Origin: Phycomyces nitens
Lineage: Eukaryota > Mucoromycota > Mucoromycetes > Mucorales > Phycomycetaceae
NCBI GenBank assembly: GCA_022702545.1
Contig: JAHRBC010000002.1
Location: forward strand, 248,001-312,000
Reading direction: 5' to 3'
Length of the DNA stretch: 64,000 nucleotides
Shown here: positions 9,640-49,813 of the stretch, piece after piece
Numbering within the stretch: position 1 is the first letter of the stretch
How the letters are laid out: every line of letters begins with the position of its first letter
Notes under the pieces: generated by a model
The model's input: the letters and a program-made list of their open reading frames with translations, nothing else
What the model was told of the DNA's origin: nothing
The model's database searches: none
Position numbers and translations under genes: made by a program

Positions 9640-9649
9640 AGGAGAGGAA

Positions 9650-9664
9650 GCCTTCTTGGCTCAG
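9650..9664 (+). repeat. tRNA-Thr 5' fragment = 15-bp target duplication (left copy) of LINE-2
   Basis: GCCTTCTTGGCTCAG, identical to nucleotides 1-15 of the intact tRNA-Thr at 36904. The same 15 bp recurs at 15852-15866 and 32609-32623, each time directly at a LINE 3' end. Confidence 0.9.
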
Positions 9665-10479
9665 ATTAAAGATTATTTTTTATTATAGGGATATAATGCT
9701 GGCGATCTATAGATCATATAGCATCCCAGGTGCAAAAGAGAGGAACAAAAAAGTCTAAGGAAATCACAAAGACAAAAAAAGTAGAGGGGGAGAAGGGAAA
9801 CAAATCATACTAAGCTAAAAGCCTGAACCTGCTCTCCACTTTGCAGCTGTGTAAAAAGGTGTAACAGTGAAAGGGAGGAGACAGATTTACAGAACAAGAA
9901 ACATTTCAGAAAGAGTGGAAAGAAAGAAAAGAAATCTAGCTAAACTAATGCCAAGAAAGGCCATGATCAGTCTCATGGGCATACACTGCAAAAACTGTGG
10001 GGTAAAACCATGTATATAACCAGAAATAAATAGGGGAAAAGTTTAGGTTTTCAGGGGAGAACAGAATACTACAAGTATGGGAGTAAGCAAGGTTTCTCCT
10101 GGGCTCAAAGTTGAATCTCATACAGGTGCAAAGTTGAAAACTTTTGGGAGAGTAGGGTTCATTAGCTTTTTCTGCATATAGATTTTTGGTGTTTACCAGA
10201 TTTTTGTGCTTAAAACTATGTTTTTAGTGTAATAGATTATGTGTTTATAAATTGAAAAGACGATTACACACAGCAAATAAAGTTGGGGAGAAGCTGGCTT
10301 TCTCCATGGTATCAAGGATATCCTCAAGCAATTAACCAATCATCGAATACTATTACTGTGCAATCAAGCATAGAATGATCCCCCCCATTGTTTTATACCC
10401 CGTACTTATTAGGTTTATGGTTTATATTTGTGTTTATTGGAAAGAATAGAATGGCTCTGTACACAAGCTCTAATACTAT

Positions 10480-11951
10480 TACTGTTTATCCTTGCCGCTT
10501 CTACCGGCCTACTTGATACTACTTGGATCGGGTGCTTCACTACTGAACAATACCTGAAAATAGGGACCGACGGCGATTTGGGTGGTTGCGGCAGTATTCT
10601 AATACAATAAAAGTTATATTAGTGACATATATTCAAGAGTGCGGGTGTTGTTCAAGATGCGAGGTATATTATACTTACATTGTAAGGGATGGATAAGAAC
10701 GGACAAAGTGGGGCTGAGTTGTGCAGCATGGCATGGCATGACATGGCATCTTGTATGATTAGATTGACTAGAGATGGGGTAAAGTAAATTACTATGGGTG
10801 AATTGAGTGATAGAATAATCGATTTACATACCAGAAACAGAGTTGACAATTAAGTAGAGGATGTTACGTGATGACCAACAATAGATTCTTATTAAGAGTA
10901 TAGAACAATATTAGTAAATAGCCAGAATAATATTATAGAAAGAGATAAAGACCAAGAAAAGGCATTACCATTATGATAACCAGTCGTAGATGATGAAGGG
11001 GCCAGATGGGGTGGACAGTGATGGCGGCGGTCTATAGTAGAATAAGAAACGTTAAAGGATAAAATAGTTTGACACGAAAATATTTTTTACCAAGCCACCA
11101 ATGACAATACCATATAATAGACCATTTGAGTAGAGGAGGTCTATAAGTTAAAAAGAGAGAATCAGAATAGTGTTATGGAAAGCATAAATACTAAGAGACA
11201 GTATTACTATTATGATAACAGTTGTAGATGATGGAGGAGCCAGATGGGGTGATTGATGGTGGCGGTCTATAGTAGAATAAGAAACGTTAAAGGAGAAAAT
11301 TATTTGACATGATTTTTTACCATGCCACTGATGACCATACCATATAATAGACGTGTGAGCGGAATATATCTATAAAATAAAAAGAGAGAATAAGAATAAT
11401 ATTATAGAAAAGTATAGACCAAGAAACGGCATTATCATTATGATAACCAGTTGTAGATGATGGAAGAGATGGACAGGGTGTGATGGGGGTGACCCAAGTA
11501 GAATAAACAACGTTGGACAAAAAAAAGGTTTGACACCAAAAGGTTCTTTTTTACCATGACACTGATGACAATACCCATATAATAGACCGTGTGAGTGGCG
11601 GAGGGCTATAAGAGAAAAAGAGAGGATCAGAATAATATTATAAAAAATATAAAGACTAAGAAAAGATATTACCATTATGATTCCAATCGTACATGAAGGA
11701 AGAGGTAGATGGGGTGAATGGTGGTGTGATCTACAATAAAATAAGCAACGTTAGAATAGAAAATTGTTTGACACGAAAAGATTTTTTAGCCCAATATTGA
11801 TGATAGAACCATATAATAAGCTGTGTGAGTTGAGGAGGTCTATAAAATAAAAAAGAGAGTCAGGATAATTTGCGAGATGCTAAAGGCACATTCAACTGAC
11901 CACAGATTGTTTGGATGAGCAATGCAAGCAGGATGTATTGAATGAGCGCAT
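10480..11951 (-). pseudogene. Gene 3 of CIII-2 with tandem exon/intron modules
   Basis: The minus strand begins with an ATG at 11951-11949 matching the CIII-1 start. It continues through about six modules of about 234 bp, each with two intron-like segments, and ends with the conserved last exons (NSAPLCPFLSIPYN near 10690). The same broken splice signals seen in CIII-1 are present (missing GT donor near 11800, missing AG acceptor near 11490), so the defects predate the two copies. An array-wide reading frame is not maintained. Confidence 0.6.
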
Positions 11952-12062
11952 GTTTATAAAGAAGCCGCCAATTTTTTAGTGTAAAGATGTGTAAAAAAGA
12001 AAGAAAAAATGGGCCCGGATATAGGAAACGAGGGAAAGGAAAAAGAGCAAAAAAGAAAAGAA

Positions 12063-14261
12063 CGACTTAGACTTTGCTGCTATATTGTAATAAATAATAT
12101 TGTATTAACTATAATGTGTATTCAAAACATATATTAGAGTCAACTTACTTTATTATTCTCTATTATTTATTTATGAGCCTGATTATTGATTGTAAAGCCT
12201 TTTCCAAGACTTGGTGCACAGCATTCTATAATATTTATATTGATTCTGTGACAGACCATTATATTATTTTATGGCCATATGATAGTGTTCTTGTCAATTA
12301 AATAGTGTTTGATAATATAAGACCATGCTTTTAGTTGATGCCGCAATTCATAGTCAAAGCATGGTTTGAGAAAAATATTAACATAAACAAAGGTTATTCT
12401 CTATGGGTTCTCTTGTGCCGTATTTTTTGATCTTATTGATAAAGTGTATTATGTAAATGAAGTTTACTCTTTTCTTTGAGACCACCACTTGTATCAATTA
12501 CTAACTTACCAAGCTAATCAAGGTATTTGTCCAATTGATCCCTTTTTATACCAAATATCTATTTATAATAAATGAAAAATATATACAAACCAAACACTTT
12601 AACAAACTATTGACTTTTGAATATTCCTTTGGGTTGATCAATCTTCATTTGACTGCAAACGTTTTTGGTGAAAATATTAATAAAATAGCTTGCTGTCTGA
12701 TACTTGCCAAGCATGGATAATAACCATATCCTTTAGATTGTGAACAAAGGAATGGCCCTTGTATCTTAATATAACTTTTGCGTTGCCAGATAAAATAAAA
12801 ACACAAGTTAAATCATAGTATAGTATTTTATTGTTGTTACAATCAATTATTACCTTTTCCATAAGATACACTTTGAGAATCTGCGCAACTTACTTTCCCA
12901 ACAAGTTTATAGCAAGGCTATATCTCGGTCTCTTTTAAACTATTCAAAATTACCTGATATACCTTTTTTCATATAATAAATCGCCGAGGCCCATTACAAA
13001 GCTGCTCCACTCAATTCATAGAGAGAATTATAAGTAAACTGGATAAGCTCATTAGATACTCTGAAATCCGCAACTATATCAATATAATAATTAAGATCTA
13101 TCCTAATATTAACCTTTTGCAACCACATATATATACTAAAGCTCATTTTTGTGATATTTTCAATGGGAGAAGTGGTGACTAACTGTGTAAGCTTTTCAGT
13201 CAATTTGTCTATTTAAATAGTAATGTTATACACGGCATAATAATAGTATAAATGAAGTTCTGTTTAGTTATTACCTGTGGCATACTGATTTGAATGCTAT
13301 GGAGGTTGATGTTTCCACTGTCATTGTTAATGTCCATCATTAGATGGATTCAACTTTGCATTCTTCATTTATATACCCAAATGGCGATATTAGCACCAAC
13401 AATCACCACCCAACACCCCCCTTGTCCTTGTAGAAAATAAATATAGTATTAGTAAAAACACAAAATAAGAATCACTTGCTATTTGTACATGCTTACCTAG
13501 CAATCACAATATAACTAATGAAAACCAGCTCATTAGTATTATTCATCTCTACTTTTAGTATAGAGATTAAGACTTTAGTCAATATTTTGTTACTTTAGAA
13601 AAAACTCATGAAGGAGCTTGACATTACAAACGATGACTTGTATGTAGCAGAAATAAAGTAGCAGCCCGCACTTTGTACAATGGGCTATATACTACAACTG
13701 ATATTTGCAGTTGTTAATGTAGATGACGTCCAACATCAACGACTCAATCAATACCTACCAGACGGAAATAATTCTATTTTATTGCACTGTACTACATATT
13801 CAAAAATAATTGACGCGTCACCATGAGTAGCCTCTTTATTTTATAATTCTTTCTTTATAATGCTCTCTCTATACTTCTTTATATTATTATACGGACACCA
13901 AATAAAATAAAATGGCTAATAATGTCAAAAACAAAAAATTGGTTTCAAAAAAACAGTAGTTATGCTACCGTTTTGTTCACACAGCCAAAAAATTATTTTT
14001 CTCAAGAATGCGCAATATCTTTAATACCAAATAAAATGCTCATTTCAATAAACAAGGTTGCCTAAAAATTTACGGGCCCTTTCTATGGTACTACAACTAC
14101 CTCATTATCAGATGAAAAGAGATTCCATGTGACTTTTATGAATTGGCATCAATGACATTACCTTTCAACCACAATCTGCAGAGAGAAAGCACTCTAAAAT
14201 CATAAAAAATGGCAGTTATGTTACCATTTCGGTAGCTGTTCCCACTCCTTTTGCCATAGTG
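12063..14261 (+). mobile_element. CIV-0: old, 5'-truncated copy of the ACGGTAG-type CACTA family
   Basis: The right end (…ccatttcggtagctgttcccactccttttgccatAGTG region, ending 14261) is a diverged version of the CIV terminus. Segments such as 12095-12130 and 13700-14260 align with CIV-1 (26550 region and 27580-28130). The left end is missing; the break at about 12062 also removed the transposase and accessory genes of CIII-2. Two short spliced-looking ORFs on the minus strand (about 12994-13203 with an upstream segment near 13285-13340) have no recognisable relatives. It is far more decayed than CIV-1 or CIV-2. Confidence 0.65.
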
Positions 14262-14269
14262 TATAATCG

Positions 14270-14674
14270 GCAAAAGGATCGGCTTCCAAAAAACAGCAAG
14301 TTCTCCTGATCACCAAGTACATCTGAGGACCCAACTTTATGGAACAAGGTAGCCAAATATAGAATATAGTAGTTATTTAGTTTCTGTTGCTATGCCAATA
14401 AATAATCCTTACGTTCAAAATCAACATCTATCATATTGCATTGGGAGGAGATTTCTAGTAAAATATATTATGATACAATTCATAGAGTGTTTACAAAAGT
14501 AACTTGCCCCTTTCACAATCTTCAAGACGCTCTAATCTTGCTCTCTTTGCATAACGTTGAGCAGTCAGTTTCTGGACAAGACTGTAATCATTCTTGCTTG
14601 TACTGCATCTAGGGCAAAAGCACTTCTCATTGTAGACATCGGAAGTAGAAGACATGGTATTTGTGTATTGAAGT
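14270..14674 (-). pseudogene. Transposase 5' exons of CIII-2
   Basis: The minus strand encodes MSSTSDVYNEKCFCPRC…, the small Cys-motif exon also found at 18009 in CIII-1 (about 97% identical), followed by the GC-AG type intron and the start of the acidic exon. The rest of the transposase was lost at the junction with CIV-0. Confidence 0.8.
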
Positions 14675-14900
14675 TTAAACAAAAAGGAAACAAGTGTTAC
14701 ATATGCTTTATTTGCTATGGTTTTATAAGAGTGTAAAAATATTATCTCCTGTTCTTTATATTCGAGCCAATTAAATACAAGAAAATAATATTTTCAAGGT
14801 GATCACAAAAAAACATGTTGAGTTGCAAAATTGCTTCAGCTTTCTCCACGTTCTCAGTTAACTGTGCACAGTAGAACAGCCCTCCGTTTTCCCAGTGATA

Positions 14901-15851
14901 GTCTCCATCTGGGTTACAGAGGATGTCAATATGTCAGAGGATGGTAAGGAGGGCAGTCCAGTAGGAGGGGCGTGTGGTAGCAGTGGTAGGCAGGGAAGTG
15001 AGGGCATAGTCAATGGTGTTGATATCAGGAGTGGGAGGAGGAGGAAGAATGGCAAGGAGGTGAGAAGGAATGGCAGTGCAGGTTTGGAGATGGCGTCTTG
15101 AAGTATGGTCCTGTTGGCAAGTGCACTCTCTAGGCTTACCAGGAAGCCAGCCCATTCTCCAACGAACTAAACGGCCACGTTCAATGCGAGTTGCAGGCAG
15201 AAACAACACAGGATCCACTTCCAGAAGAGGGCGGCAGGCAAGGAGCAGGATTTGGCTTGTGGACCCCCTGAATTGGTCAAACTTTTGTTGTCTAAAAGAC
15301 TCAAAGTGGCGTGACAAGGCATTGGCAGAATGAACATTCAGATCAAGTGGGATGCTGAGAAGCAGTGGGTTCTGACAAAGGGAGGCGAGAGATGAGGATT
15401 GGGGATGGTGAAGATGAAGGAGAGACAATAAACAGCCAGAAGGAAGGTAATGAGCACGGATACAGAACTTGGTGATGAGGATATCAGCACGGAATCGCAT
15501 GGAGGGTAGGTTACATATGTGTTTGAGGACAGCTGTTGAGGAAGTAGCATGCCCACCAACTATCATGTGCAAGCATTTGTCCTGGATCTTTTCAAGCTGG
15601 GTAAGATCCTTTTGTAATAGACGTGAGATAGCAAGGCCATACTCAAATTTGGGGCGAACAAAAGTGCGATAGAGTCTTGAGCTCAAAAGGAGGGAAAAGC
15701 CAGATCTGCAGGCCCCAACAGCATTGAGGGTAGCCATGGTAGCCAACATTCCAGAACGGCGATGTGTGACAATAGAGGGGCCAAAAATACCCTTATTACA
15801 AAAGGGCATACCAAGGTAGATGAACTCATCTACTGCAGGGAGTAACTCACC
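14901..15851 (-). pseudogene. LINE-2 reverse transcriptase, C-terminal part
   Basis: An open frame from 15851 down to a TGA at 14934, homologous to the thumb and C-terminal region of the LINE-1 RT (RSGMLATMATLNAVGACRSG, RLVRWRMGWLPG). It retains a Cys/His cluster (CTCQQDHTSRRHLQTC), the zinc-knuckle-like tail usual for LINE ORF2 proteins. The TGA stands where LINE-1 has Trp, a G-to-A change. The catalytic FADD region is absent because the copy is 5'-truncated, which is usual for target-primed reverse transcription. Confidence 0.8.
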
Positions 15852-15866
15852 GCCTTCTTGGCTCAG
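15852..15866 (+). repeat. tRNA-Thr 5' fragment between LINE-2 and LINE-1
   Basis: GCCTTCTTGGCTCAG. It serves as the right duplication of LINE-2 and the left duplication of LINE-1. Its left neighbour is the truncated 5' end of LINE-2 and its right neighbour is the LINE-1 3' end (gttaaagatt). Confidence 0.9.
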
Positions 15867-16151
15867 GTTAAAGATTATTTTTTTATTACGAGATATATTG
15901 CTGGCAATCTATAGATCATGTAGCATCTCAAGTACGAAAGGTGAAGGAAAAAAAGTCTTAGGGACAAAAGACAAAAAAAGAGAGGAAAAGTGGGGAGCTA
16001 ACAGTACTGGGATGAAAGCTGGACCCAACTCTCCTCTTTGCAGCTGCATAATATTTGTAACAGTGGAAGGGAGAAGGAAGGAGAACAGACAGACAACTTT
16101 TCCTGCGCAAAAAGAACTAGAAAAGGATAAAAATAAAATAAAAATAAAAGG

Positions 16152-17763
16152 CTAAGTGGCATGCCACAAAGCACCATGGTCCCTCTTGTGAGTGTACTCT
16201 CCATCAGGGTTGCACAGCTTGTCTATGTGCCAAAGGATCGTGAGGAGTGGAATCCAAAAGGGTGGGCGAGGGTGGGCGGCGGACGAGGGAAGGGAAGAGA
16301 TGGCTGCATCAATGGGATGGCCAAGGAGTGAGGAAGGAGGAGGTAGTGCGGAGAAGAGGGAAGAGGGAATGGAGGGGCACTCGGCCAAGTGACGACGGGA
16401 GGTGTGGTCAGTACCACAAGGACATTCCTTGGGTCTGCCAGGCAACCAACCCATACGCCATCGGACGAGGCGGCTGCGCTCTACACGAGAGGCAGGGAGG
16501 AAGAGGATGGGGTCAACCCCAAGGTCAGGGCGACATGCTCTGATAAGCACTTGGTCAGTCTCGTTGCAGAAATATCCAAAATGGATCTGACGGACTGACT
16601 CAAAGTGCTTTTTCAAGAGGGAGGGCGAGGAGGTGCGGAGGGTGGGGGGAAGGTTGGAGAAGAGGGCATTGGAGCGGAGGCGGTTGAGGGAGGAGTGCTG
16701 GGGATGGTGGAGGAGAAGGAGCGAGAGGAGACAGCCAGAAGGCAAGGAACGTGCATGAAGGCAAAACTTTGTGACAAGAACGTCAACACGGAACCGGATA
16801 CTGGGTAAGTTGCACAAGTGTTTGAGGACGATTGTAGATGACATGGCGTGACCACCCACAATCATTCTCAAACACTTGTCTTGCAGTTTCTCCAGGTTCT
16901 TGTAATCACGCCCAATGAGGGCAGCAATGGCGAGTCCGTACTCGAACTTTGGTCGAATGAACGACTTGTACAGCCGAGAACTCAGCAGCAGGGAAAAGCC
17001 AGAACGACATGCACCAATGGCATTCAGCGTTGCCATTGTGGCAAGAGTGCCAGGTTTTCGGTGCGAGACCAGGGATGAGGAGGAGATCCCCTTGGAACGG
17101 AATGGGACACCAAGGTAGATGAACTCTTCGACGAAGGGGAGTTGTTCGCCATAGAGGGAGAGGGAAGTGGGGTTGAGGGCACGGGTGGGAGGACATATGA
17201 CGGCGCACTTGGAGGGACTCCAACGGTATCCAAGAGCAAAGGAGTGTTCAGCAGCGAGGTCAAGCATGCGTTGCACATCGACTTTACTGCCAAGAATGGC
17301 TACGTCGTCAGCGAAGAGGAGAGAGTTGATGGGGGTGGGGGAACGAATATGCCCAAAGCCATCCACACCTGAAGGAGCAAGAAGGGACTGGTAGGCATCC
17401 AACGAGGAGGGAGAGGGCGATGGGATGAAAGTGGCGGAGGATGGAGTGGCAACTGTGCGAAGGAGTGGTGGCAGGGAGTTGATGTAAATGGAATAAAGAT
17501 GGGGGCTGAGGACAGAACCTTGCAGCACACCCATTGACGGAACGAAAGGAGAGGAGACGAAATTGCCCAAAAGGACAGAGATAGACACATCGTCAAACAT
17601 GTTGACGAGTAAGGCCAAAAGAGCGGGAGGGGTTTGACGTTGGGCAAGAGCATGCCATATGACCCGTCGGTCAATGGTATTATAGGCAGCCTTGATGTCA
17701 AGGAAGGCAACGACGGGGTAGTGGTGGTGACAGGCATAGTGGGCTTTCATGAGATCATGGAGG
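16152..17763 (-). pseudogene. LINE-1 ORF2, reverse transcriptase palm to C-terminal tail
   Basis: An uninterrupted 532-codon frame that starts just inside the CIII-1 junction. It carries RT motifs in order: FLDIKAAYNTIDR (first catalytic Asp), GVLQGSVLSP, and LLFADDVAIL (the FADD box). It ends with a CPCGTDHTSRRHLAEC zinc-knuckle-like motif and a stop at 16152. Its N-terminal continuation lies beyond the CACTA insert at 28525-30245. This is the cleanest part of the LINE. RT would copy the LINE RNA onto nicked target DNA in the nucleus. Confidence 0.9.
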
Positions 17764-18008
17764 CATCACTGGGAAAACGGTGGGCTATTCTACTGTGCAC
17801 AGTTAACTGAGAACGTGGAGAAAGCTGAAGCAAATTTGCAACTCAACACGTTTTTTTGTGATCACCTTGAAAATATTGTTTTATTGTATTTAATTGGCTC
17901 GGATATAAAGAACAGGAGATAATATTTTTATACTCTTATAAAACCGTAGCAAATAAAGCATATGTAACACTTGTTTCCTTTTTGTTTAAACTTCAATACA
18001 CAAATACC

Positions 18009-21000
18009 ATGTCTTCTACTTCCGATGTCTACAATGAGAAGTGCTTTTGCCCTAGATGCAGTACAAGCAAGAATGGTTACAGTCTTGTCCAGAAACTGAC
18101 TGCTCAACGTCATGCAAAGAGAGCAAGATTAGAGCGTCTTGAAAATTGCGAAAGGGGCAAGTTACTTTTGTAAACACTCTATGAATTGTATCATAATATA
18201 TTTTACTAGAAATCTCCTCTCAACGCAATATGATAGATGTTGATTTTGAACGTAAGGATTATTTATTGGCATAGCAATAGAAACTAAATAACTACTATAT
18301 TCTATATCTGGCTACCTTGTTCCATAAAGTTGGGTCCTCAGATGTACTTGGTGATCAGGAGAACTCGCCGTTTTTGGAAGCCGATCCTTTTGCTGATCAT
18401 GGCGAAATTGGTGCTGACAATGAGGCTAATGCCGATGCCGATGCTGATGCCGATGCCGATGAGAATGAGATGGACGGTGGTGATGATGACGACGAGGGCG
18501 ATTTGGAAGAGATCGAAGTTGAGGAGTTGGATGGTGAAGGTCAGTGTTAAATAGAGAAAAAGCCTAAAAAATTGGGTGTTAATATTTTCCATTTTAAAAT
18601 AGATCCTTTTGCCTCCCCCCAAATGCCTGAAAACCCAGTGCACAGGTTCATTGCCATTTCTGTTGTCCTGTTTGCATCCCATTATGTGGTTGACAAGGGC
18701 GCCGTTGTCTTGATCGAGTTTGTCAACAAGCTCTTGACAATCTATGATCAAGATTTCCAACTGCCCACAAGCCTGCTTGGTCTGCAGCGCATGACAGGAT
18801 TTTCAGCCATGTCCCAAGGAATAAGGAAATCTGTTGTGTGCCAGGATTGTCACAAGGTGTACGAGGAAGCTGGGTCTGTTCCCCTTCGGTGCGATTTCCA
18901 GAAGCCAGGAGCACGTTCCTCTTGCGATTCCCAGTTGATGAAGGTGTCATCATCAGGTGCTTTGGTAGCCAGACGCCAATACAACTACCATTCTGTCAAG
19001 CAGGAGTTGAGAGTGTTTTTCCTCTGCCCAGATTTCGAAGCAAGAATCCGCCATTGGAACAAGGAGCTGAAGGTTGAAGACACGATGTGCAATGTGTATG
19101 ATGGCGCCATGTGGAAGGAGCTCAAGGACTCGAATGGTGTTTCTTTCGTCCAAGACCCACGTTCTCTCATGCTGACATTGAACGTTGACTGGTTCCAGCT
19201 GTTCGATGGGGTGACCTATTCCTGTGGTGCGATCTACTTGGCCGTCAACAATCTTCCTAGGGCTGAGCGATTCAAGGCAGAGAACATCATTCTTGTTGGA
19301 CTTATGCCTGGGCCCAAGGAACCAAAATCTGACGAGATCAACCACTATCTCAAGCCATTGGTGGACGATTTGGAAGAGCTGTACATTGGTGTGAAGATGC
19401 GAACTGCCGAGTGTTCATCAGGTGTTACCGTCCGTGCTGCATTGTTTATGGTGGCGTGCAACATTCCAGCTGCCAGAAAGACGAGTGGGTTTACTTCCCA
19501 CAACAGCACCCATGCATGCTTCAAGTGTAGTCGTGGTTTCTCTCGTTTGGACGGAACAAACAGCGTTGACTTTTGTGGCTTCGACTCTGCACAGTGGTCC
19601 CTTTGCAGTGGTGTCAAAAATCGGTTGCATGCTGAGGTGTGGAAGAGTGCCAGTACGCCCTCAGAAAGGCATCAGCTGGAAATCGAAAATGGCGTTTGAT
19701 GGTCCCAGTTGCATCGCCTTGGATACTTTGACGTTGTTCGCTGCACGATCATTGATCCCATGCACAATCTCTTCTTGGGTACGGCCAAGCGAATGGTCGA
19801 GAGGTGGATTGATGATGGCCTGATCACAGACCGTGATCTTGCTGCCATGCAAAAGACTGCCGAGTCTATGGTTCTGCCGGCCAATTATGCTGTCCTCAAA
19901 GGCAAGATCGGAAAAGGCTTTTCCTACATGAAAGCAGACAAGTGGAAGTCCTGGGTCCTCGTATACTCTCCAGTCCTGTTGAAAGGTGTGCTCCCTCCTG
20001 ACAACTTCAACAACTGGATCAGCTTCGTTGATGCCTGCCGCCTTTTGGTCAAGCCAGCAATCTCGTTTTCCAAGGCAACCAATGCCCACAATTTCCTGGA
20101 AACGTTTGGTCGAAGATGTCAGTCCCTATATCCTGCGAATCTTCTCACTTGTAACATGCACCTACACCTTCATCTTCATACCATTATTCGTGATTTTGGA
20201 CCAGTGTACGGTTATTGGCTGTTTTCATTTGAGAGATACAATGGATTGTTAAAAAACATCAAGACCAACAGACGAGACGGCTTTGAGTCCACCTACATGA
20301 AGAACTTTATTAATGATGCATACAAGGGCGATTATGTATCTTCTGTTCTTCAATGTCCCAGTCAAACCCCCTTCCGCCCCTTTATGTCCAAGCTTACCTC
20401 CTCCTCCTATGCCCCATCCTATGCCCCATCCCATGCCTCCTCCTATGCCTCCTCCTATGCCCCCTCCTATGCCATGTCTCAAGGCCCTTTCCGGTTGAGA
20501 GCATTTATGCAGGCCTCTATGAATCCACTCTCTATCAAAGGCAACGAACCTCTCCCTCCTTCTGCGTTGCCACTCTCTATGAAACCGTATGAATCAATGA
20601 ATGACCTTGAATATCCCTATCTCATGGAACACTATAAGCTCGTATATGCAAAGCCAGATTTAGTGGATTACCGACATGCCTCATCTTCGCCATATTTTGT
20701 TGACAACCAAATATGCAAGATCGCGTCTATCAATCTCCTTGGCCAGTCATACAAAGGCAAGAAGAGTACTGTCGGTCATGGTTCTTATGTTCAAGCTCTG
20801 TTCTCTGGAAATGACGACAAAAATCCGACTGCATGCACAGGCGAGATTCAATATATGTTTGTCCATTCCCAGTCTATGCCCCCTATGTCTCATGGCCGAC
20901 TAAATCGTCATCACAATAAGCAACATGTTTTCGCGTACGTTCGCTGGTTTGTCTTTGATTCCGAGCGTACAAGAGAACATGAAAGTGTTGACATTTGTAG

Positions 21001-21142
21001 GCCACAATTTTCTCCAGCCAACTACCACAGTATTGTGCCTGTACATCGCATTCTGTTAGAAGTAGCACTGGCTGAACATATGACCCAAAATAATGTAAAG
21101 AAGATACTGGTTATCCCTTTACCTAAAAAAATATATGCTTAA
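18009..21142 (+). pseudogene. tnp2-type transposase of CIII-1, one in-frame TGA
   Basis: Exon 1 starts at 18009 (MSSTSDVYNEKCFCPRC) and ends before 'gcaagt', which gives a GC-AG intron also present in CIII-2. A short exon follows near 18200-18252. Exon 3 is 18342-18539 (very acidic, Asp-Ala repeats) and exon 4 starts at 18603. Core motifs: CQDC, DWFQLFDG, LMPGPKEPK, DPMHNLFLG. A TGA at 19697-19699 replaces the Arg of ENGVRWSELHR in related copies; downstream the frame is open to the TAA at 21142 (IPLPKKIYA). The variable linker here is a SYAPS-like repeat (about 20400-20480) instead of the Pro-Thr repeat of CI. Apart from the single nonsense codon it looks complete, about 960 aa. Confidence 0.88.
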
Positions 21143-21288
21143 GTTTTAATAAAATATGTCTTTACTCATTTTTAAACAAGATTGCATACCAGAATAAAAT
21201 AAACAAGTATAGGATTTGAATGAGTCTTTAGGATTGAGTGCATGAGAGGAGCAAAGATGAGGTTTTTTTTATTTTTTTTTAAATTTTT

Positions 21289-27900: not shown

Positions 27901-28130
27901 TAAAATGCTCATTTCAATAAACAAGGTTGCCTAAAAACTTACGAGCCCTTTCTATGGTACTACAACTACCTCATTGCCTGATGAAAAGACATTCCATGCA
28001 ACTTTTATGATTCGGAATCGATGACATTACCTTTCAACCACAATCTGCGGAGATAAAGTGCTCAAAAATCATAAAAAACGGTAGTTATGCTACCGTTTTC
28101 GGCACAGCTACCGGTCCTTCCGCCGTAGTG
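24956..28130 (+). mobile_element. CIV-1: short CACTA element with ACGGTAG subterminal repeats
   Basis: Both ends carry CACTACGGC/GCCGTAGTG termini, with CAT duplications at 24953-24955 and 28131-28133. The related CIII-2 element has the unfilled site at 10375-10377 (ATG on that strand), proving both boundaries. Subterminal regions carry many copies of ACGGTAG in both orientations, often as palindromes (aacggtagctaactaccgtt), the usual layout of transposase binding sites in CACTA elements. The left 1.7 kb is non-coding and holds a diverged direct duplication (about 25797-26030 and 26031-26240). The right half holds a transposase remnant. Confidence 0.95.
26844..27721 (+). pseudogene. Transposase C-terminal remnant of CIV-1
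   Basis: Three coding blocks: 26844-27071, 27081-27317 and, after an intron (gtgagt…atctag), 27375-27721. The second and third join in frame. They read like the C-terminal region of fungal tnp2/KDZ-type transposases (ASCLWKNSTVHSSCMYQR; WFVSTVEFYFEH; VDDIQHQVGLIQYP). No catalytic core is present. A TGA at 27069-27071 separates the first block. Identical layout in CIV-2 and CIV-3 shows that the deletion derivative itself has been mobilised, presumably by a transposase supplied in trans. Confidence 0.65.
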
Positions 28131-28524
28131 CATTCTATTCTTGATTGCACAGTAATAGTATTCGATGATTGGTTAATTGCTTGAGGATATCCTTGATACC
28201 ATGGAGAAAGCCAGCTTCTCCCCAACTTTATTTGCTGTGTGTAATCGTCTTTTCAATTTATAAACACATAATCTATTACACTAAAAACATAGTTTTAAGC
28301 ACAAAAATCTGGTAAACACCAAAAATCTATATGCAGAAAAAGCTAACGAACCCTACTCTCCCAAAAGTTTTCAACTTTGCACCTGTATGAGATTCGACTT
28401 TGAGCCCAGGAGAAACCTTGCTTACTCCCATACTTGTAGTATTCTGTTCTCCCCTGAAAACCTAAACTTTTCCCCTATTTATTTCTGGTTATATACATGG
28501 TTTTACCCCACAGTTTTTGCAGTG

Positions 28525-30245
28525 CATAGGGCTTGATCGAGGGCACCATGACAAGGACGGAAACCACCTTGGGAGACGTCAAGGGGAGGGGAATGGGAGT
28601 GAAGGATCGGGGCAATACACATCTCGAAGAGCTTTCTAACGACTGAGGTGAGGGAGATTGGTCAATAGTTGGCTGCTTCGGATGGATTCCCTTTTTTGAA
28701 GATGGGGAAGACTTGGGCTTGACGCCAGAGGGAAGGAACGTATGACCACTGCCAGCAGATGGTGAAGAGGAGGGAGAGGAGGGGGGCAACAAAACGATGG
28801 ACGGGTTTAAGCATTTCTGCGCGAATGTGGTCTGGGCCAGGGGCTTTTTGGGTAGGGAGCCAACGCATGTATTCTTCAACCATCGACGAATCGAATGGTG
28901 AGTCAACAGAGGCGAATGGGGTGAGAGAGAGGGTGTCAGGAGGAGGGGGAGGACGGGAGACGGGAAGGATGTGACCACTGTAGACAGAGGACAGGTGTGC
29001 GCGCATTGTCTCAGCAGCTGTGGAGGGACCATTGTCATGTTGGAAAGTGTGTTGGGGCTGGCGGCGACGCTTCAACTGTTTGATTTTGGAGGTAGCTTTG
29101 CCAAAGTTTCTCTCCATAGCCTCACAGAAGGCGTGCCAGGAAGCGCGTTTGGCGGTCTGAACAGCTTGGCGGAACTCCAGATGTGCTCGTTGGTGCCGGC
29201 TCCACCAATTGATCTTGTCTATGCCACAAGCTCGATGCCATTGCTTGTAGCAACCATCACAATGGTCGGCTGCCTCTTGAAGGGCAGGTGTCCAGAACTT
29301 CTTCCACTTGGAGGGACGGGGAGGGCGGTTACCTATTGAGCTACTAAGAGAGTCATAAATGAGTGAGTTGAAATCGTTAGTGAGGGCATCAATAGGGGGA
29401 GGAGAGGACGGCGGATTTTCTACAATTTCTTGCAGAGTGGAACGGAGGGGGGCGGAATTGGTGATGAGGGTGGAGGCATATAAGTCTAAACACTCTGGTT
29501 CCTTGAGACGGGATAGGTTCCAGAGGCGTCGAATGGGAGGGGGGGGGGGGGGGGGGGTTGGAGGGCATAGGTAAAGGAAAGGGAGAGGAGGTGGTGGTCA
29601 GAGCCCAAGGAGAGTTTGGTGGCAATGTGGAGGGAGGGGTTGGTGAGGTTGGTGTTGGTGATGAAGAGGTCAATGATGCTGCTGATTTCAACATCACGGC
29701 GGAAGGAAATGTAGGTGGGGGTGCATGGAGAGAGGGAGCCGTTAAGGACAGTAAGGGAGCGTTCTTCTAGCCACTCACAGAGGGCTAGGCCGCGGAAATT
29801 GGTGGCATAATCACCAGTGAGAGAACCCAGTCTGGCGTTGAGGTCGCCACATATAATGGTGTCATCAGTTAAAGGAATGGCTGAGAGGACGGAAAGGGCA
29901 TCGGCAGTGGGCATGTTTGGTGGCAGGTATAGGCAAACCAGTCAAAGGGTGCCAATCTTGACTGCGAGGGTATAATTGTTGGGCATAGGGATTTGGGTGA
30001 CGGGATAAGGGCAGGAGGGGGAGATTAACAATGAAACTCCCATCGACCCACGGTAGTTCCCAGCAACAGGGGATCAGTACAAATGAATTTGGGACCATGA
30101 TGTGGGTATACGCGCAGGTGATAGGAGCCATGTTTCTGTGATGAAGAGCATATGTAGGGACTGACAGTGGTTGAGCACGTTGTTAATAGCACGGGGTTGA
30201 AGACCGTTTGCATTCCATAGTTCAAATGAGATCTCACTCATTCTT
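28525..30245 (-). pseudogene. LINE-1 ORF2, endonuclease and N-terminal RT part
   Basis: The minus strand starts with an ATG overlapping the ORF1 stop (ATGA, about 30242). It encodes an endonuclease/exonuclease/phosphatase domain: LWNANGL, ITETWL, ICGDLNARLG, IDLF and GSDHH in order. A 19-base poly-C tract (29557-29539) shifts the frame, then KAPGPDHI and FPIFKKGNPSEAANY of the RT follow. In-frame TGA codons stand at 30076-30074, 29944-29942 and 28664-28662, each where Arg is expected. The RT continues after the CIII-1 insert at 17766. In this family the endonuclease nicks the target for priming; here it is presumably the determinant of tRNA-Thr specificity. Confidence 0.85.
29539..29557. repeat. 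19-bp poly-G (poly-C in LINE sense) tract
   Basis: A pure G run inside ORF2 of LINE-1 at a Pro-rich linker. It changes the reading frame between the endonuclease and RT parts. It could be a real slippage expansion or an assembly/sequencing length error. Confidence 0.85.
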
Positions 30246-31260
30246 CCATATGGTCGCTGGGAGCAAGGCTACGTTTTCTTTTGAAGGCTGATTCAGCATC
30301 ACCCTCCAAAGCTGTACGAGTGGGCACTTCGTCGTTACAGATCCAGCCTGCTTCAACAAAGTAATGGGCCACAGGTATGGCAACATGGGGGCGCAGGAAC
30401 TTAAGGGCTTGGATGCACCTATCGTGCTGGATTTCCATGGCCTTGTCAGCACGGTCGTCAATTGACATATCCCTAAACTTAGGGTCAGCCAAGTGCTGGG
30501 GGTCCAAAGGATTGAAATCCAAGATGAGTTCGACACCAGCTTTTTCAAGCTGTGTCTTGAAGTCAGAGGCGAACTGGAGGTGGACAAGGATACCCACAAC
30601 GCCGCGAGCAGGGAAGTTGATGTCCAGAAGACGAGCTGTGTCAACGCCAAGGGTTCTGAGGGAACTGCGCACTTCCCTATGGGTGAGGCGGCGGGAACGT
30701 GGGATATAAACGTATTCATATCCGTTGGGGCCAGAGGGGGCAGTGAATACTCGCTGGGAGGTGGCAACTTGATGAGGAGAGGGACTCTTGCGGGTGGGGG
30801 GAGGGCGGTGGACGCTGGCCTTTACAGCCCAGGTGGAGGCTTCTAACCCTGGTTCCTGGGAACTGGGTGTGGGGACAGGGGCGGAGAGTGAAACAACAGG
30901 GGCTGGATCCTGGGGGGAAGAGTTTTGTTTGCCCAAAACTTTGGCAAGCTGCAACTTGGTCTCAGCAAGTTCTTCTGTCAACCGGACGTTTTTGGCCGCA
31001 ACGGCTTCCCAGTGGGCACTGGCAGCAGTGAGGGCATCGACCTTCTTGGCAAGATCAGCAAGGTATGCCATGAGATCACTTGGCATTCCCTGCATAAGAG
31101 ATGGGGGCAATGATGTTGACATTGGTAATCTCAACGGAAAAAAGTTGTTCGATCGTTCTGAGACTTGGTCAGTGGGTGCTATGACAGGTAAGCGTGTTGA
31201 GGATGGTGTTATGGCTGTTGGATGCAACGTCTTAGATGATGGATGCTTGGGGATATTCAA
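30238..31260 (-). CDS. LINE-1 ORF1 protein, 340 aa
   Basis: An intact frame from 31260 to the TGA at 30238. Residues about 60-120 contain a heptad pattern of Leu/Ala/Val (YLADLAKKVDALTAA, AKNVRLTEELAETKLQLAKVL), a likely coiled coil. A Ser/Pro-rich linker follows, then a basic-aromatic region (YVYIPRSRRLTHREVRSSL) and an alpha/beta-looking C-terminal part ending DHMEE. LINE ORF1 proteins bind the element RNA as multimers; this one has no CCHC zinc knuckle that I can see. Its stop codon overlaps the ORF2 start (ATGA). Confidence 0.8.
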   Translation of the reverse strand: MNIPKHPSSKTLHPTAITPSSTRLPVIAPTDQVSERSNNFFPLRLPMSTSLPPSLMQGMPSDLMAYLADLAKKVDALTAASAHWEAVAAKNVRLTEELAETKLQLAKVLGKQNSSPQDPAPVVSLSAPVPTPSSQEPGLEASTWAVKASVHRPPPTRKSPSPHQVATSQRVFTAPSGPNGYEYVYIPRSRRLTHREVRSSLRTLGVDTARLLDINFPARGVVGILVHLQFASDFKTQLEKAGVELILDFNPLDPQHLADPKFRDMSIDDRADKAMEIQHDRCIQALKFLRPHVAIPVAHYFVEAGWICNDEVPTRTALEGDAESAFKRKRSLAPSDHMEE

Positions 31261-31342
31261 TGTTGCTATTGGTAGATAGGTATCAGCAAAAAAATTACTA
31301 AAAAAGGAAATTTTTTGGGGAAAAATATCCTATAAGCGAAAG

Positions 31343-32597
31343 TGACGCGTGTTGAGTTTGTTGTGATGTGAAAACGAGTCAGAAAATATAATAAATTAAA
31401 TACCACTCATTGACAATAATGATGGTGCGATAGAGATAGACAATAACGGGGGTAGAAACCGAAATTGGACAGCAAGAAACAGACAAGAGAAAGAAAAGGT
31501 GAAAATATGGATAGAGATATATAACTTCGCTCGGGACAGTTGAATATATTCTTGACAGCAATGGAAACAGGGAGGAAGAGATATAATAGGAGAGGGGAAC
31601 TAGATAATTTCACTCAGGACAATTACTAAAGTTGACAGCAAGGTACTGGGAAGATACAGATTTGGATGGAAAAGGGAATTGGATGAAAAGAAAAATCAAT
31701 CTTGGCACAGGTATGACTAGGAATTTCTATACAAGACAATTCACTAGTTCAGGGACGGAAATTAAGAGAGAGGTAACTGATAATGTTTATTGATTGAAAT
31801 TTTGGTCTCTTATATAGACTTTGTAAAATGTTACTTAGTGATAAATGGTGAATTGATTAATAATAAAATATAGGAATTGGGTGTGTGAATGAAAAATAGA
31901 ACAGTATATGAGATAATGGATAAGGATAATAATGACTTTGGGGGGAGAGGTATGAGATGATAAGACAAAATAAGATATGATAGTATGAGAAAATGGGATA
32001 TACAGTGAAGGTGATAATATAAAAATGGAGGACAAATATGATAAGACAAAATGAGATATGAAAATGTGCGAAGACAATGTAAATATGAAGTATGAAGATA
32101 TGGATAACAGTAATATGATAAAGTGAGCAGTGTGAGAGAAGGGACAGAGATATGAAGGGGTATGAATAAAATGAAGTGCCGATGTGTGAGAGGGTGTAAA
32201 GAGGTAGATAACATGAAGAGAAAGATAAGTGCGCACAGACAGCAATGTGGGGAGAAGGGAAGGGAAGATAGATGACAAAAATAGTGTACAATGGATAAAT
32301 ATGGAAATGGATAGGAGGGGTTTGAAATGAGAGTGAGGGTGACAAATATGGAAAATCAAAGAAGTGCGGAGAAAAGAGAGATATGAGAAATAAGGTGACT
32401 TGCAAATGGAGAAAGGTGACTTGCAAATGGAGAAAGATGACTTGCAAATGGAGAAAGGTGACTTGCAAATGGAGAAAGGTGACGTTGCCAAGTTGATCAG
32501 GATGCTACATCACGCTTTCTAGCAGGGAAGGCCTTGGAAAAGTCACGTGAAATGGAGAGAAGTGGGCGAAGCTGGAAACCCTACAACACCCGTGTCA
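31343..32597 (-). repeat. Solo LTR of tRNA-associated family, 1.25 kb
   Basis: On the minus strand it runs TGACACGGGTGTTG…CAACACGCGTCA, with TG…CA ends and short inverted repeats. Both flanks carry AAAG (31339-31342 and 32598-32601), a likely 4-bp duplication. A TATA-like tctatataagag (minus strand, near 31812) marks the promoter. The long minus-strand frames across it are low-complexity and not genes. It sits 11 bp before the tRNA-Thr fragment at 32609, with its promoter pointing away from the tRNA. A related copy is at 57754-58765. Confidence 0.8.
32394..32478. repeat. 21-bp tandem repeat, four copies
   Basis: The unit is GGTGACTTGCAAATGGAGAAA, with one copy starting GATGAC. The homologous place in the 9.5-kb LTR has one unit. 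Confidence 0.9.
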
Positions 32598-32608
32598 AAA
32601 GAGTATAT

Positions 32609-32623
32609 GCCTTCTTGGCTCAG
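32609..32623 (+). repeat. tRNA-Thr 5' fragment between LINE-1 and LINE-4
   Basis: GCCTTCTTGGCTCAG, directly followed by the LINE-4 3' end (attaaagatt). It is the right duplication of LINE-1 and the left duplication of LINE-4. Confidence 0.9.
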
Positions 32624-32809
32624 ATTAAAGATTATGTTTTATTATAGGGATATAATGCTGGCGATCTATAGATCATATAGCATCCCAGGTGCAAAAGAGT
32701 GGAACAAAAAAGTCTTAGGAAATCACAAAGACAAAAAAAGTAGAGGGGGAGAAGGGAAACAAATCATACTAAGCTAAAAGCCTGAACCTGCTCTCCACTT
32801 TGCAGCTGT

Positions 32810-35800
32810 CACTACGGCGGAAAAAACGGTAGCTAACTACCGTTTTGGTAGCATTACTACCGTTTTTTCCCACCAAAAAAAACGGTAGTAAAGACTCTGT
32901 ATAAGGCGATTTCGGTAGCTGTTACCGTTTTTTTAGTGCGAAAAAAAAGGGTAGTTATGAGGCAGGAATAGGCACAGCTACCGTTTTTTTATCCAACCAA
33001 AATCGTTTCTTTATATACTATAGCCTCTCTTTTATATTACTTTATATACTAGCACCCATTCTTTTTTTACTGCCATTTATTTGAAATAATGGTTTATTTT
33101 TTATTATAATTTCGATTTATTTCAAATAATATTAAAATATATATAATAATAATATAGAAACACCAAAAGCAAATACTATTTAATATTATAAAACGTATAT
33201 GGTACAAACCTTTTACTCAATCTATACACGATGCCAACAACATGTTGTTATGACTTGGATGGCCTTTGGTCTTCATCGATTGCTATAAAAATATTGTGGT
33301 CAGAGAATGAAGCAATCAAATAAACCGAATATATTGTTTTGGGTAGCATACCAGTATATATTGTGCTTGTTAATCAGCGTGCCGAGCATCTTGTTGTGAA
33401 TCACTGTCATGACTTGGAAGGCCTTTGGTCTTCATCAATTGCTATAAAGATATTGTGGTCAGAGAATGAAGCGATCAAATAAACCAAGCATATTGTTTTG
33501 GATAGCATACCAGTATATATTGTGCTTGTTAATCGGTATACCAAGCATCTCTTGAATTAATGCCACTATATGAAACGTACAGATGTAAATACTAGATGCA
33601 GTAGAAGGAGAATAGAGAATGCGCAATATGATTAATTAAAGAGTGTAAACATATTATAATATTCTTACCATAGAAAATATATTGCTGTAAAGTCAGCTCA
33701 TAAGATTTAAAACTAATTCGAATATAATGGTAGTTGGCAGAATGAGTACATCATTAAGAAAACAATATGCATATTCTACAGAGATTCCCAGGTGGGGAGG
33801 TGGGGAACGACAAACTTTAGTGTAATATAGCTGTAAAAAATTTTCACCTTTTTTTAGTGTCTGAAAAATTATGAGATGAGTGTTTCATTCCTTGATTAAA
33901 GATAGCAGAGCTGAAGATGTGGTATACAAGATTCCAATCGGATGTTTATGTAATTGACAACCTTACATAAGGGAGGGTCATTTAGTTTTATTTCAAAAAA
34001 GTAGAGCAAAGAAAAGAAAAGAAATATAAACTAACCTCGGCGTAATACAGCTATAAAAAAATTTCATTTTTTTTGGTGCTTGAAAAAGGGCGAGATGTGT
34101 GTTTCATTCCTAGATTAAAAACAACAGAGCTGAAGATGTGGTATACAAGATGCCAATCGGGCATTTATTAAGGTGGCAATCTTACGTGATGGAGAGTTAT
34201 TCGATTTTATTTCAAAGGAGAGGACCAAAGCAAAGATAAAACAGCTAAAGGAAAAGAGGAAAAGAAAAAGTGTGCTAAAACATATACTAAAAATATGAGA
34301 GAACCAATAAGAGCAGCCTAAAGAATATTAAAGACTTAGTCTGTTTCTCTTAGATGAAGGCTCATTGCTCATTCCTAGTGGTGTAAACCTATATCAAACA
34401 GTAGAAATATTATATTAATATTAAATTGAGAATAGATGAGCAACAAAAAGCTCTAACTTATAGTACATCTGTCATGATTGGGGATTCAGCCTCGTCATCC
34501 GTTTGAAATACCTCATCTTCCGAAAGAAAAGAACTGCTTGCTCTTTCCTGCTATAACATAATAAAAATATTGTATTAATTATAATGTATATTCAAATGTT
34601 TGTTAATTAATAAACTTGCCTGGCTGTTCTCTGCTATTTTTCTCTTACAAGTCTGGTTTGCACTCTTAAAGGTGTCTTGAAGAAGATTCTTGGCACACCA
34701 CATTCTTTTGCACTTGTAAATATGGAGTGCTATTGTCCTAGCCGTGCCTCACTGGCCACAATCATTGATGACAGGTACGTTGATTTTGTCATCATTGACC
34801 AAGAAGTGTCTTTGCTGCTGTTGCTATTATTAGTCAAATAATCTCTTACCTACCCATGGAAAAAGTAATTAGAGTATACTCCAAGCTTATCACGTCAAAC
34901 TTGAAGGGCGGTAGAAATGCCAGTTTGCTTGTTGAGCGCTTTGCTGTTCATAGCTTTGTCAGTTCAGCAAACAGCTCTCAGAATTATCCTAGTACAAGTC
35001 AGCCATCCACATATAATGAAGCAAGTTTCTTAGATCTTCCAGATGGTGTAAGTGCTGCCCAGCTATGGGAGCCATTCAACTGACATGCCAGTTTGAATGA
35101 TGATGACTTGGAAGGTGTCAGCAGCCCTGTTGTCAAGAATACTTTGGCAAAGTACTATGTGCGAAACAGTGGTATGGACAGTATTGAACTTGATGACCCG
35201 ACGATTGTTGTTGCTTCTCGTCTTTGGAAAAATTCAACCGTACATTCTTCATGTATGTACCGAAGAATAAAAAACGAGACCAGACGTGGCAATCATCATG
35301 TGATGTTTACCTGTCCGTACAGAAAGTGAGTATTGGTATTATTCAAAATACAAAATAGAGATCACTCGCATTTTTTATATTTTTATCTAGCCGTCGCAAT
35401 ATAACTATTCAAAGCTGGTTTGTTAGCACCGTGGAATTTTATTTTGAGCATAAAGAGGTTGATGGCACACCGCACTTTCTGGCATTCGTTGAAGTGATGA
35501 AAGAGCATGGTACAGCAGCCCATGACTCATCTGTGCCAATTGTAATACGGCGGTCACACAGCTCAACTGGACAAACAACCCAGCCAAAATATGCTGTTAA
35601 TGTGGATGACATTCAGCATCAAGTTGGGCTCATCCAGTACCCTCCGAGTAGTAATCAGTTCTTTATCATTGCATCATATTATGTGTTTAATGACAATCTG
35701 CATGTGACCAGGGGTAATCTTGCCACTTTATAAAAATTTTCTTTTTCTTTTTCTTTCTTTATAAATATCAATACCAAATAAAATAAAATAAAATGGCTAA

Positions 35801-36142
35801 TAATGTCAAAAACAAAAAAATTGTTTCAAAAAAACGGTAGCATAACTACCGTTTTGTTCACACAGGCGAAAAATTATTTTTCTCAAAAATGCGCAACATC
35901 TTTAACACCAAATAAAATGCTCATTTCAATAAACAAGGTTGCCTAAAAACTTACGAGCCCTTTCTATGGTACTACAACTACCTCATTGCCTGATGAAAAG
36001 ACATTCCATGCAACTTTTATGAATCGGCATCGATGACATTACCTTTCAACCACAATCTGCGGAGATAAAGTGCTCAAAAATCATAAAAAACGGTAGTTAT
36101 GCTACCGTTTTCGGCACAGCTACCGGTCCTTCCACCGTAGTG
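32810..36142 (+). mobile_element. CIV-2: CACTA element nearly identical to CIV-1
   Basis: Ends CACTACGGCGG…CCACCGTAGTG with TGT duplications (32807-32809, 36143-36145). The empty site is preserved in LINE-2 at 9848-9850. It is 158 bp longer than CIV-1 because of a tandem duplication around 33243-33560 ('ggcctttggtcttcatc…' repeated). Very few differences from CIV-1 indicate recent movement of both. Confidence 0.95.
34856..35733 (+). pseudogene. Transposase C-terminal remnant of CIV-2
   Basis: Same three blocks and intron as in CIV-1 (34856-35083, 35093-35329, 35387-35733), with a few substitutions (for example SRLWKNS for SCLWKNS, the probable ancestral state). No catalytic core, so it is non-autonomous. 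Confidence 0.65.
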
Positions 36143-36230
36143 TGTGTAAAAAGGTGTAACAGTGAAAGGGAGGAGACAGAATTGCAGAACAAGAAACATT
36201 TCAGAAGGAGAGAAAGGAAAGAAAAGAAAG

Positions 36231-36893
36231 TGACGTGTGATGTGTTTGTATGGTTGTGTATGGTAACCGAACGGGCGACAAATAAAATATATAAAAGAAA
36301 CAATGAAAGAACCAGTAAAAGACTAACAAAACTCAACAGAAATATCCCCAAAATGACCGGGCAAAATATAACTGCTCTTCAGAGATCGAGAGCTTAAACT
36401 CAAAAGAATAAAATAACCGTAAAATTGATCGTAAAACTGACTGATAATATTTATTCATTAGAAAAGAATGTCTTTTATAGACAAAGAAAATAACTAAAAG
36501 AATAACCGAAAAATGAAATAATAAAATAATAAAATGATGCCATCAAGGCCAAAGGAAAAATATAATAAAAAAAAATACTATAACATAGTAAAGAAAGGGG
36601 TAAGACAAAGAAGTAGGGGAAATAAACTAAAGAAGTACAGAATGGTGCAATCCTGCAAGAAAGTGAGAAAGGATTCACAAAGGAAATATAAAAGGAAATA
36701 ATAAAATGTGATAAAATAAAAATAAAGAAAAATTGAAAAGAAGGAGAAATAAAGAAACTCGGGGATCGGCCATCCTTACTCGGCTCGGACTTCTTCTTCG
36801 GACTGGTCCGGCCTCCGATCCCTCCTAGGCCTGTTCCGGGCCCTTGGTCCGGCTTCATGGTCGAAACCGAACTTGCCCACAACACACGTGTCA
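36231..36893 (-). repeat. Solo LTR of a second tRNA-upstream family member, 663 bp
   Basis: On the minus strand it runs TGACACGTGTGTTGTGGG…CACACGTCA. AAAG occurs on both sides (36227-36230, 36894-36897). A TATA-like gtctataaaag lies on the minus strand near 36475. It is 10 bp upstream of the intact tRNA-Thr and points away from it. It shares the terminal motif, but little internal sequence, with the 31343 copy. Confidence 0.75.
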
Positions 36894-36903
36894 AAAGGAA
36901 AAC

Positions 36904-36975
36904 GCCTTCTTGGCTCAGTTGGCAGAGCGTCTGCCTAGTAAGCAGAAGGTCGCCAGTTCAATTCTGGCAGAAGGC
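36904..36975 (+). tRNA. tRNA-Thr (anticodon AGT)
   Basis: A complete 72-nt cloverleaf: acceptor GCCTTCT/AGAAGGC (7 perfect pairs), D arm GCTC…GAGC, anticodon arm TCTGC-CTAGTAA-GCAGA, variable AGGTC, T arm GCCAG-TTCAATT-CTGGC. The anticodon AGT (A34 normally edited to inosine) reads Thr codons. No intron. It is the only intact copy of the sequence whose first 15 nt recur at three LINE ends, and it carries LTRs 10 bp upstream and 25 bp downstream. Confidence 0.96.
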
Positions 36976-37000
36976 ATTACTTATTCACAACTTTTTATTG

Positions 37001-49778: not shown

Positions 49779-49813
<35 letters not shown>

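Follow-up and report, generated by a model that had tools for sequence, protein, structure and literature searches.

In a 64,000-nucleotide (nt) window of the Phycomyces nitens genome (C4:248001-312000; C and L numbers are our labels for contigs and loci), copies of a long interspersed nuclear element (LINE) alternate with the first 15 nt of a transfer RNA (tRNA) gene, tRNA-Thr(AGT), and end at a whole copy of that gene (Table 1). In total, 48,981,352 bases in 11 contigs were searched, in which 40 Fungal_trans matches, as against none in 14 prokaryote control genomes, point to a fungus. Within the window, the 15-mer GCCTTCTTGGCTCAG occurs exactly, and on the plus strand only, at 9650, 15852, 32609 and 36904, whilst shuffled sequence gave an expectation of 0.11 matches with up to two mismatches allowed. 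LINE 3' ends begin directly after the first three of these, at 9665, 15867 and 32624, with all window LINEs on the minus strand and so running opposite to the tRNA. The original prediction held that three LINEs end at the 15-mer; this stands for the 3' ends directly right of the copies at 9650, 15852 and 32609, but not for the left of the copies at 9650, 32609 and 36904, where ends of long terminal repeats (LTRs) are found, and the LINE body adjoins the 15-mer directly on the left only at 15852. That one LINE has the 15-mer on both sides, as a target duplication, is confirmed by LINE B, which lies between the 9650 and 15852 copies.

LINE C aligns to positions 4-254, 454-2825 and 2823-4732 of another copy, L115, carries RVT_1 and Exo_endo_phos_2 domains, and is interrupted both by a CACTA-like element and by an LTR. 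A Pfam search with its first open reading frame (ORF1) matched no family. LINE B was delimited by a LINE protein match (14865-15851) and DNA matches (9666-9884 and 14899-15851), and LINE D differs from it at 3 of 186 positions in the 32624-32809 piece and at 6 of 87 in the 36143-36230 piece. A small hairpin recurs at the LINE 3' end, but its folding z-scores are -1.2, 0.0 and -1.1 in the window copies and 0.9 in L115; at values between -1.2 and 0.9 we make no claim of a significant RNA fold.

Table 1. Features of the window (positions within it) and groups of stacked LINE copies elsewhere (contig positions; LINE 3' end identities run from the tRNA-proximal to the outer copy)
Feature	Position	Strand	Basis or remarks
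LTR end left of first 15-mer, only its end placed	9450-9639		Matches LTR ends elsewhere in genome; ends GTGTTA at 9639
tRNA-Thr nt 1-15, duplication copy left of LINE B	9650-9664	+	Exact match
LINE B, 5'-truncated	9665-15851	-	LINE at ~9665-9980 and ~14900-15851, other inserted DNA between
tRNA-Thr nt 1-15, right of LINE B, left of LINE C	15852-15866	+	Exact match
LINE C, full length, ~4.7 kb of LINE in three pieces	15867-32608	-	15867-17766, ~28525-31342, 5' tip 32598-32608
LINE C reverse transcriptase (RT), C-terminal part of ORF2	16152-17765	-	RVT_1, E 9.8e-13
CACTA-like DNA transposon and further nested repeats, inside LINE C ORF2	17767-28524		LINE match interrupted; ends CACTG...CAGTG, CAT both sides
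LINE C endonuclease domain, Exo_endo_phos_2, apurinic/apyrimidinic endonuclease (APE)-like	29486-29941	-	Pfam E 8.1e-13
LINE C ORF1	30238-31329	-	Open frame; 70% identical to L115 ORF1 over 237 residues
Solo LTR in LINE C 5' tip, 11 bp from 15-mer	31343-32597		TGACGCG...GTGTCA, AAAG both sides
tRNA-Thr nt 1-15, right of LINE C, left of LINE D	32609-32623	+	Exact match
LINE D, 5'-truncated	32624-36903	-	LINE at 32624-32809, 36143-36230 and last 10 bases before 36904
CACTA-type element nested in LINE D	32810-36142		Ends CACTACGGCGGAA...TTCCACCGTAGTG, TGT both sides
Solo LTR in LINE D, 10 bp upstream of tRNA	36231-36893		TGACGTG...GTGTCA, AAAG both sides
Whole tRNA-Thr(AGT), rebuilt target	36904-36976	+	ARAGORN; Rfam RF00005, 70.4 bits; 73 nt identical to 9 other copies
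Age-ordered group	C7 4.09-4.11 Mb		100, 99.6, 92.6%
Age-ordered group	C4 7.58-7.60 Mb		100, 96.7%
Age-ordered group	C4 8.00-8.01 Mb		100, 100, 95.0%
Age-ordered group	C1 3.90-3.91 Mb		100, 95.9%
Age-ordered group	C4 4.96 Mb		100, 92.8%
Age-ordered group	C10 0.70-0.73 Mb		95.5, 91.0%
Tied group	C5 4.02-4.03 Mb		No order
Mixed group	C1 3.97-3.98 Mb		99.6, 97.0 (middle, 8/270 differences), 99.3% (outermost, 1/138 bp left)

LINE junctions and rebuilt tRNA genes across the genome

We pooled 62 LINE 3' junctions (37, including the three in the window, plus 14 and 11). The first 15 nt of a sampled tRNA gene precede 39 of them exactly and 48 with up to two mismatches, a tolerance at which only 4 of 20,000 random window 15-mers match a tRNA head, and AG stands directly before 60. 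Exact heads were those of tRNA-Ile(AAT), Thr(AGT), Thr(TGT), Ser(AGA), Ser(TGA), Ser(GCT), Leu(CAA), Leu(TAG) and Val(AAC). Insertion after nt 15 of a tRNA gene, as predicted, is therefore borne out by the 48 junctions, whilst tRNA-Thr is not the sole target, as heads of Ile, Ser, Leu and Val genes precede junctions too. The remaining 14 comprise 11 in unrelated DNA, two (L083 and L090) at which TAGCTCAG is present but no sampled tRNA matches, and L159, scored as a miss though the Val head GGTTTCTTGGTGTAA is present in shifted position. A pattern scan with one exact LINE 3' end returned 37 places, the same 37 with AG prefixed and all within the 62, of which 32 follow a tRNA head (up to two mismatches), one an A box without a sampled tRNA (L083) and four unrelated DNA. 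Outside the 62 are six matches without a 3' terminus (3 + L150 + 2) and eight further loci. Four of the eight, L123-L126, represent a family with an RT 34-38% identical, in which a 3' end is reached only in L124 and L126, both after TCAG without a tRNA head; at the other four, L119, L127, L128 and L129, no usable junction was seen. An Rfam tRNA census scored 63 of 2276 candidates, some mitochondrial-looking and none at the tRNA-Thr(AGT) places, and gives no genome-wide share.

The LINE 3' end varies with the target. Ends of the form ATTAAAG... and GTTAAAG...TTATTAC come after CTCAG (Thr, Ile), GTTAAAG...TTATTG comes after CCGAG or CGGAG (Ser, Leu), and GTAAAAGTG... comes after GTGTAG (Val), the RT of the last being 46-48% identical in copies spanning most of the query. 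In standard tRNA numbering, these cuts separate positions 15 and 16 of the A box.

For 17 elements we fetched the region ~4.7 kb from the 3' end as the predicted 5' end, and L115 and L055 were added to give 19. At 13 of these (11 of the 17 regions, L055 and L115) a whole tRNA was found with nt 1-15 equal to the 3' duplication. At joints free of an LTR, the LINE tip GCGAAAGAGCCGT adjoins the tRNA either without a gap or across a few additional bases, and the duplication, where it could be judged by eye from both sides, measures 15-16 bp, or up to 19 in a Leu stack if GTCC is included. The tRNA heads at the 3' junctions, together with whole tRNAs of the same kind at these 13 predicted 5' ends, therefore support the predicted 15-bp target duplication that leaves a rebuilt tRNA gene downstream. 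Moreover, the 5'-truncated copies B, D, L011 and L012 have a complete tRNA start, from which it follows that the 15 bases derive from the target.

A survey of the tRNA-Thr(AGT) genes found 14 exact 15-mers in the genome, ten in whole genes and four solo. The ten genes are identical over 73 nt and have between them nine distinct 3' flanks, which makes most of them separate loci. LINE sequence precedes five (L005, which is the window gene, L006, L008 by way of the adjacent L007, L011 and L012), three (L009, L010 and L014) have an LTR and no LINE within 1.5 kb, and at L001 and L013 neither was found upstream; an insertion is consequently evident at some, not all, of these genes. L009 (C5:5388283) and L010 (C5:5395502) lie 7 kb apart and inverted, with a common 3' flank and different upstream LTRs.

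Head-to-tail stacks at rebuilt tRNA genes uphold the predicted re-use of the site. Age order within stacks was judged by LINE 3' end identity to one reference copy per family, and the C7 and C10 copies were assumed, on order and direction, to form one stack each. In six groups the outer copy is less like the main subfamily, as expected of a stack ordered by age, whilst one group is mixed and one tied (Table 1). The order fails in the window itself, for which it had been proposed: the outer copy, B, matches L167 and L169 (and L168) without a difference over 270 bp, and inner copy D has 9/273 differences from B and 1/273 from the middle copy of the mixed C1 group, L174. Either solo 15-mers have been hit again or subfamilies overlapped in time; lower identity may, furthermore, reflect another subfamily and not greater age.

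LTRs, DNA transposons and other features

Ty3-like LTRs (starting TGAC[A/G][C/T]GTG, ending GTGTCA, with a flanking repeat of ~4 bp) occur ~10 bp before tRNA genes of several kinds, including the LTR at 57754-58765 in the window and those at L070, L071, L072 and L074. Flanking repeats are AAAG at 31343-32597 and 36231-36893, CAAT at L070 and AGAA at L071, with no clear repeat at L072 or at the window's tRNA-Ala LTR. Twice in the window such LTRs sit inside LINE sequence, so that two parasites share one site, and at L070, L071, L072 and L074 an LTR end is separated from the tRNA, 693-842 bp away, by a second, whole LTR. The region 9450-9650 was considered as a LINE 5' end, a reading that was rejected since it is the end of an LTR. 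Beyond the window's tRNA-Ala LTR, frames for gag/protease and RNase H/integrase occupy 59625-63342. At tRNAs for Gly, Arg, Trp, Ala and Lys (L046, L047, L055, L071 and L074) a LINE-like tip, AGAG(T/C)AT, stands between LTR and tRNA, and perhaps another LINE subfamily is behind these tips.

The CACTA-like element in LINE C has transposase-like frames at 18551-21142 and 69% DNA identity to a copy at 3650-6142 that matches Transposase_21. Two 6-kb copies, 98% identical, lie at 2825-8810 and 44991-50989, the first containing a Transposase_21 frame, and units of ~235 bp form tandem-like arrays at 10923-11869 and 23000-24416, within the sequence inserted into LINEs B and C. Elsewhere in the genome, mitochondrial-looking tRNAs repeat at 16-160 kb of contig C2 with a period of ~66.9 kb, also inverted, which looks as if a mitochondrial genome had been assembled as a concatemer. 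Additionally, tRNAs sharing a score of 65.1 bits lie within ~40 kb of the ends of C1, C4, C5, C6, C7, C8, C9, C10 and C11, with others inside C1 and C5, and are possible subtelomeric tRNAs.

Proposed mechanism and alternatives

We consider it highly probable that these elements are a site-specific group of APE-type LINEs that insert, in antisense orientation, into the A box of tRNA genes, with a 15-16 bp duplication that restores the gene and leaves the site reusable. The endonuclease would nick the tRNA-sense strand after A14-G15, inside the RNA polymerase III (Pol III) A box, and the 3' end of the LINE RNA would be reverse transcribed from that nick, presumably by target-primed reverse transcription. 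A cut in the other strand at a distance of 15 bp, at base 1 of the gene, would let repair produce the 15-16 bp duplication; nt 1-15 would remain at the LINE 3' end, with the whole tRNA gene abutting the 5' end. Being restored, the gene would presumably stay functional and could be hit again, giving rise to head-to-tail stacks. The position, the orientation, the duplication, the rebuilt gene and the preference of subfamilies for their own A-box types (CTCAG, CCGAG/CGGAG or GTGTAG) are observed here, whilst the order of the nicks, the reverse transcription from the nick, recognition by DNA sequence in place of tethering to Pol III factors, and the function of the tRNA are inferred.

Several observations weigh against this mechanism. 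No tRNA was found in the fetched stretch at 6 of the 19 predicted 5' ends (L131, L135, L138, L140, L146 and L147). At the Gly, Arg, Trp, Ala and Lys tRNAs described above, no adjoining LINE match was found in the stretch compared, nt 15 is A, and the AG rule leaves these cases unexplained. The 11 junctions in unrelated DNA (L088, L092, L095, L148, L149 and L151-L156) are LINE copies of the kind that the original prediction named as speaking against it, and it is to this extent weakened. All 11 follow AG, but this AG could come with the LINE RNA instead of marking the nick. At L122 (C6:2386280-2386950), a member of the Val subfamily, the 3' end follows GGTGTAG, has two mismatches to a Pro tRNA and was counted among the 48; the site is probably another LINE's own 3' untranslated region, a possible A-box-like target outside a tRNA. 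Finally, two of the three junction lists were scored for 40 of 62 and 40 of 54 candidates, so that the genome total is at least 62.

Steering by TFIIIC or TFIIIB at Pol III genes, as for Ty3 and TRE5, is possible though clearly the less probable account of how the site is found; the position would then be set by the protein complex and not by DNA sequence. Such steering would fit the several tRNA types hit at one coordinate and the LTR elements of the same genome that also sit at tRNA starts. The AG before every off-target junction and the split of subfamilies by A-box sequence speak against it and indicate that sequence is read, though this is not exclusive of Pol III steering.

It is very improbable that the 15 bases are instead brought by the LINE, the 5' end of its RNA carrying the antisense start of a donor tRNA so that the end of the complementary DNA supplies nt 1-15 and no target duplication arises. 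Donor flank can indeed be found at two junctions: at L142, nt 1-13 (13 nt) of tRNA-Leu(TAG), as at the L143 locus, lie between the LINE tip and a tRNA-Ser, and at L105, 12 nt of an LTR start lie between the tip and the target tRNA-Ser. These two cases suggest that LINE transcripts can begin within the tRNA or LTR that flanks the donor, the scraps resembling 5' transductions. In both, however, the target's own full 15 nt come after the foreign scrap; the truncated copies have a complete tRNA start despite having no RNA 5' end; and no chimeric tRNA was noticed among the 13 rebuilt genes, for which no formal test was made. That the units of LINE, 15-mer and tRNA stem from segmental duplication or assembly error and not from separate insertions is hardly credible, as the inverted L009 and L010 with their common tRNA 3' flank are set against the ten tRNA-Thr genes with their nine distinct 3' flanks and against isoacceptors, truncation points and subfamilies that differ.

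Returning to A-box insertion with target duplication, we regard one extension as rather unlikely but worth stating: the rebuilt tRNA gene might also be the LINE's start site, with an antisense RNA leader that begins inside it and can anneal to a like target when the ends are finally joined. Each LINE lineage would then be bound to an isoacceptor class through the gene at its own flank, and a jump to an unlike tRNA would leave a short foreign scrap, as in L142.

Comparison with known systems

The elements have the traits of LINEs, being without LTRs of their own and having a fixed 3' end (37 places) and 5' truncation (B, D, L011 and L012). Their domain order is that of the APE type, with the endonuclease N-terminal to the RT in ORF2: the L115 frame has Exo_endo_phos_2 (5.6e-14) followed by a weak RVT_1 start (0.021). 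The 881 aa L130 frame matches RVT_1 (3.7e-24), and its RT matches R2 and L1 ORF2p chains in PDB. Members of the NeSL clade carry a restriction-like endonuclease C-terminal to the RT. A domain search of the L130 frame returned RVT_1 only, with neither a restriction-like endonuclease C-terminal to the RT nor RNase H, and the endonuclease of the P. nitens LINEs is APE-like and N-terminal, which does not place them in that clade.

The published systems below are described from excerpts of the papers cited. Like the P. nitens LINEs, relatives of NeSL are non-LTR retrotransposons specific for tRNA genes, namely NeSL-1_TV (tRNA-Pro), LIN15_SM (tRNA-Arg) and LIN25_SM (tRNA-Glu), but each family is given one tRNA type, whereas the P. 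nitens LINEs enter several (PMC4640811). The dictyostelid LINEs TRE5, TRE3, NLTR-A and NLTR-B are likewise associated with tRNA genes, and TRE5 carries an APE domain (PMC5006619, PMC5911963). TRE5 inserts ~50 bp upstream and TRE3 ~100 bp downstream of the tRNA, whereas the P. nitens junction lies at nt 15/16 inside the gene, and NLTR-A and NLTR-B have an RNase H domain after the RT, in contrast to the L130 frame with RVT_1 only. NLTR-A is reported 2-6 bp upstream of the mature tRNA, a position that may resemble the P. nitens 5' junction, and the excerpts on dictyostelid LINEs describe no 15-nt tRNA duplication.

Dada DNA transposons likewise enter tRNA genes, and several of their families do so at nt 8-13, in the A box (PMC3706591, PMC8869645), but they have a DDE transposase and a duplication of 6-7 bp, which would not restore the gene, as against 15-16 bp for the P. 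nitens LINEs. Dewa of zebrafish is a LINE linked to tRNA loci, but it lies in the tRNA-Leu spacer and not in the gene (PMC3706591). Ty3, Tj1 and Tyl3 (PMC5911963) resemble the P. nitens LTRs ~10 bp upstream of tRNAs, a class separate from the LINE. A search of open-access PMC, which covers neither Repbase nor subscription papers, identified, from titles, abstract openings and such excerpts, no LINE that enters the A box of a tRNA gene and restores the gene through its duplication; PMC10886601 had nothing relevant in its excerpts. LINEs at tRNA genes are thus known, as NeSL relatives or beside the gene; as far as these excerpts go, an APE LINE that restores many tRNA genes looks new.

In this group an APE endonuclease with a defined target in the A box is open to in vitro work, and there are subfamilies whose target preference varies by A-box sequence, whilst insertion stacks at known loci allow the study of order. 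Site-specific LINEs usually break the gene copy that they enter and rely on gene redundancy. In P. nitens the duplication is the missing part of the gene, and a tRNA gene can therefore take several insertions without being lost. A parallel exists in the restoration of bacterial tRNA genes by phages.

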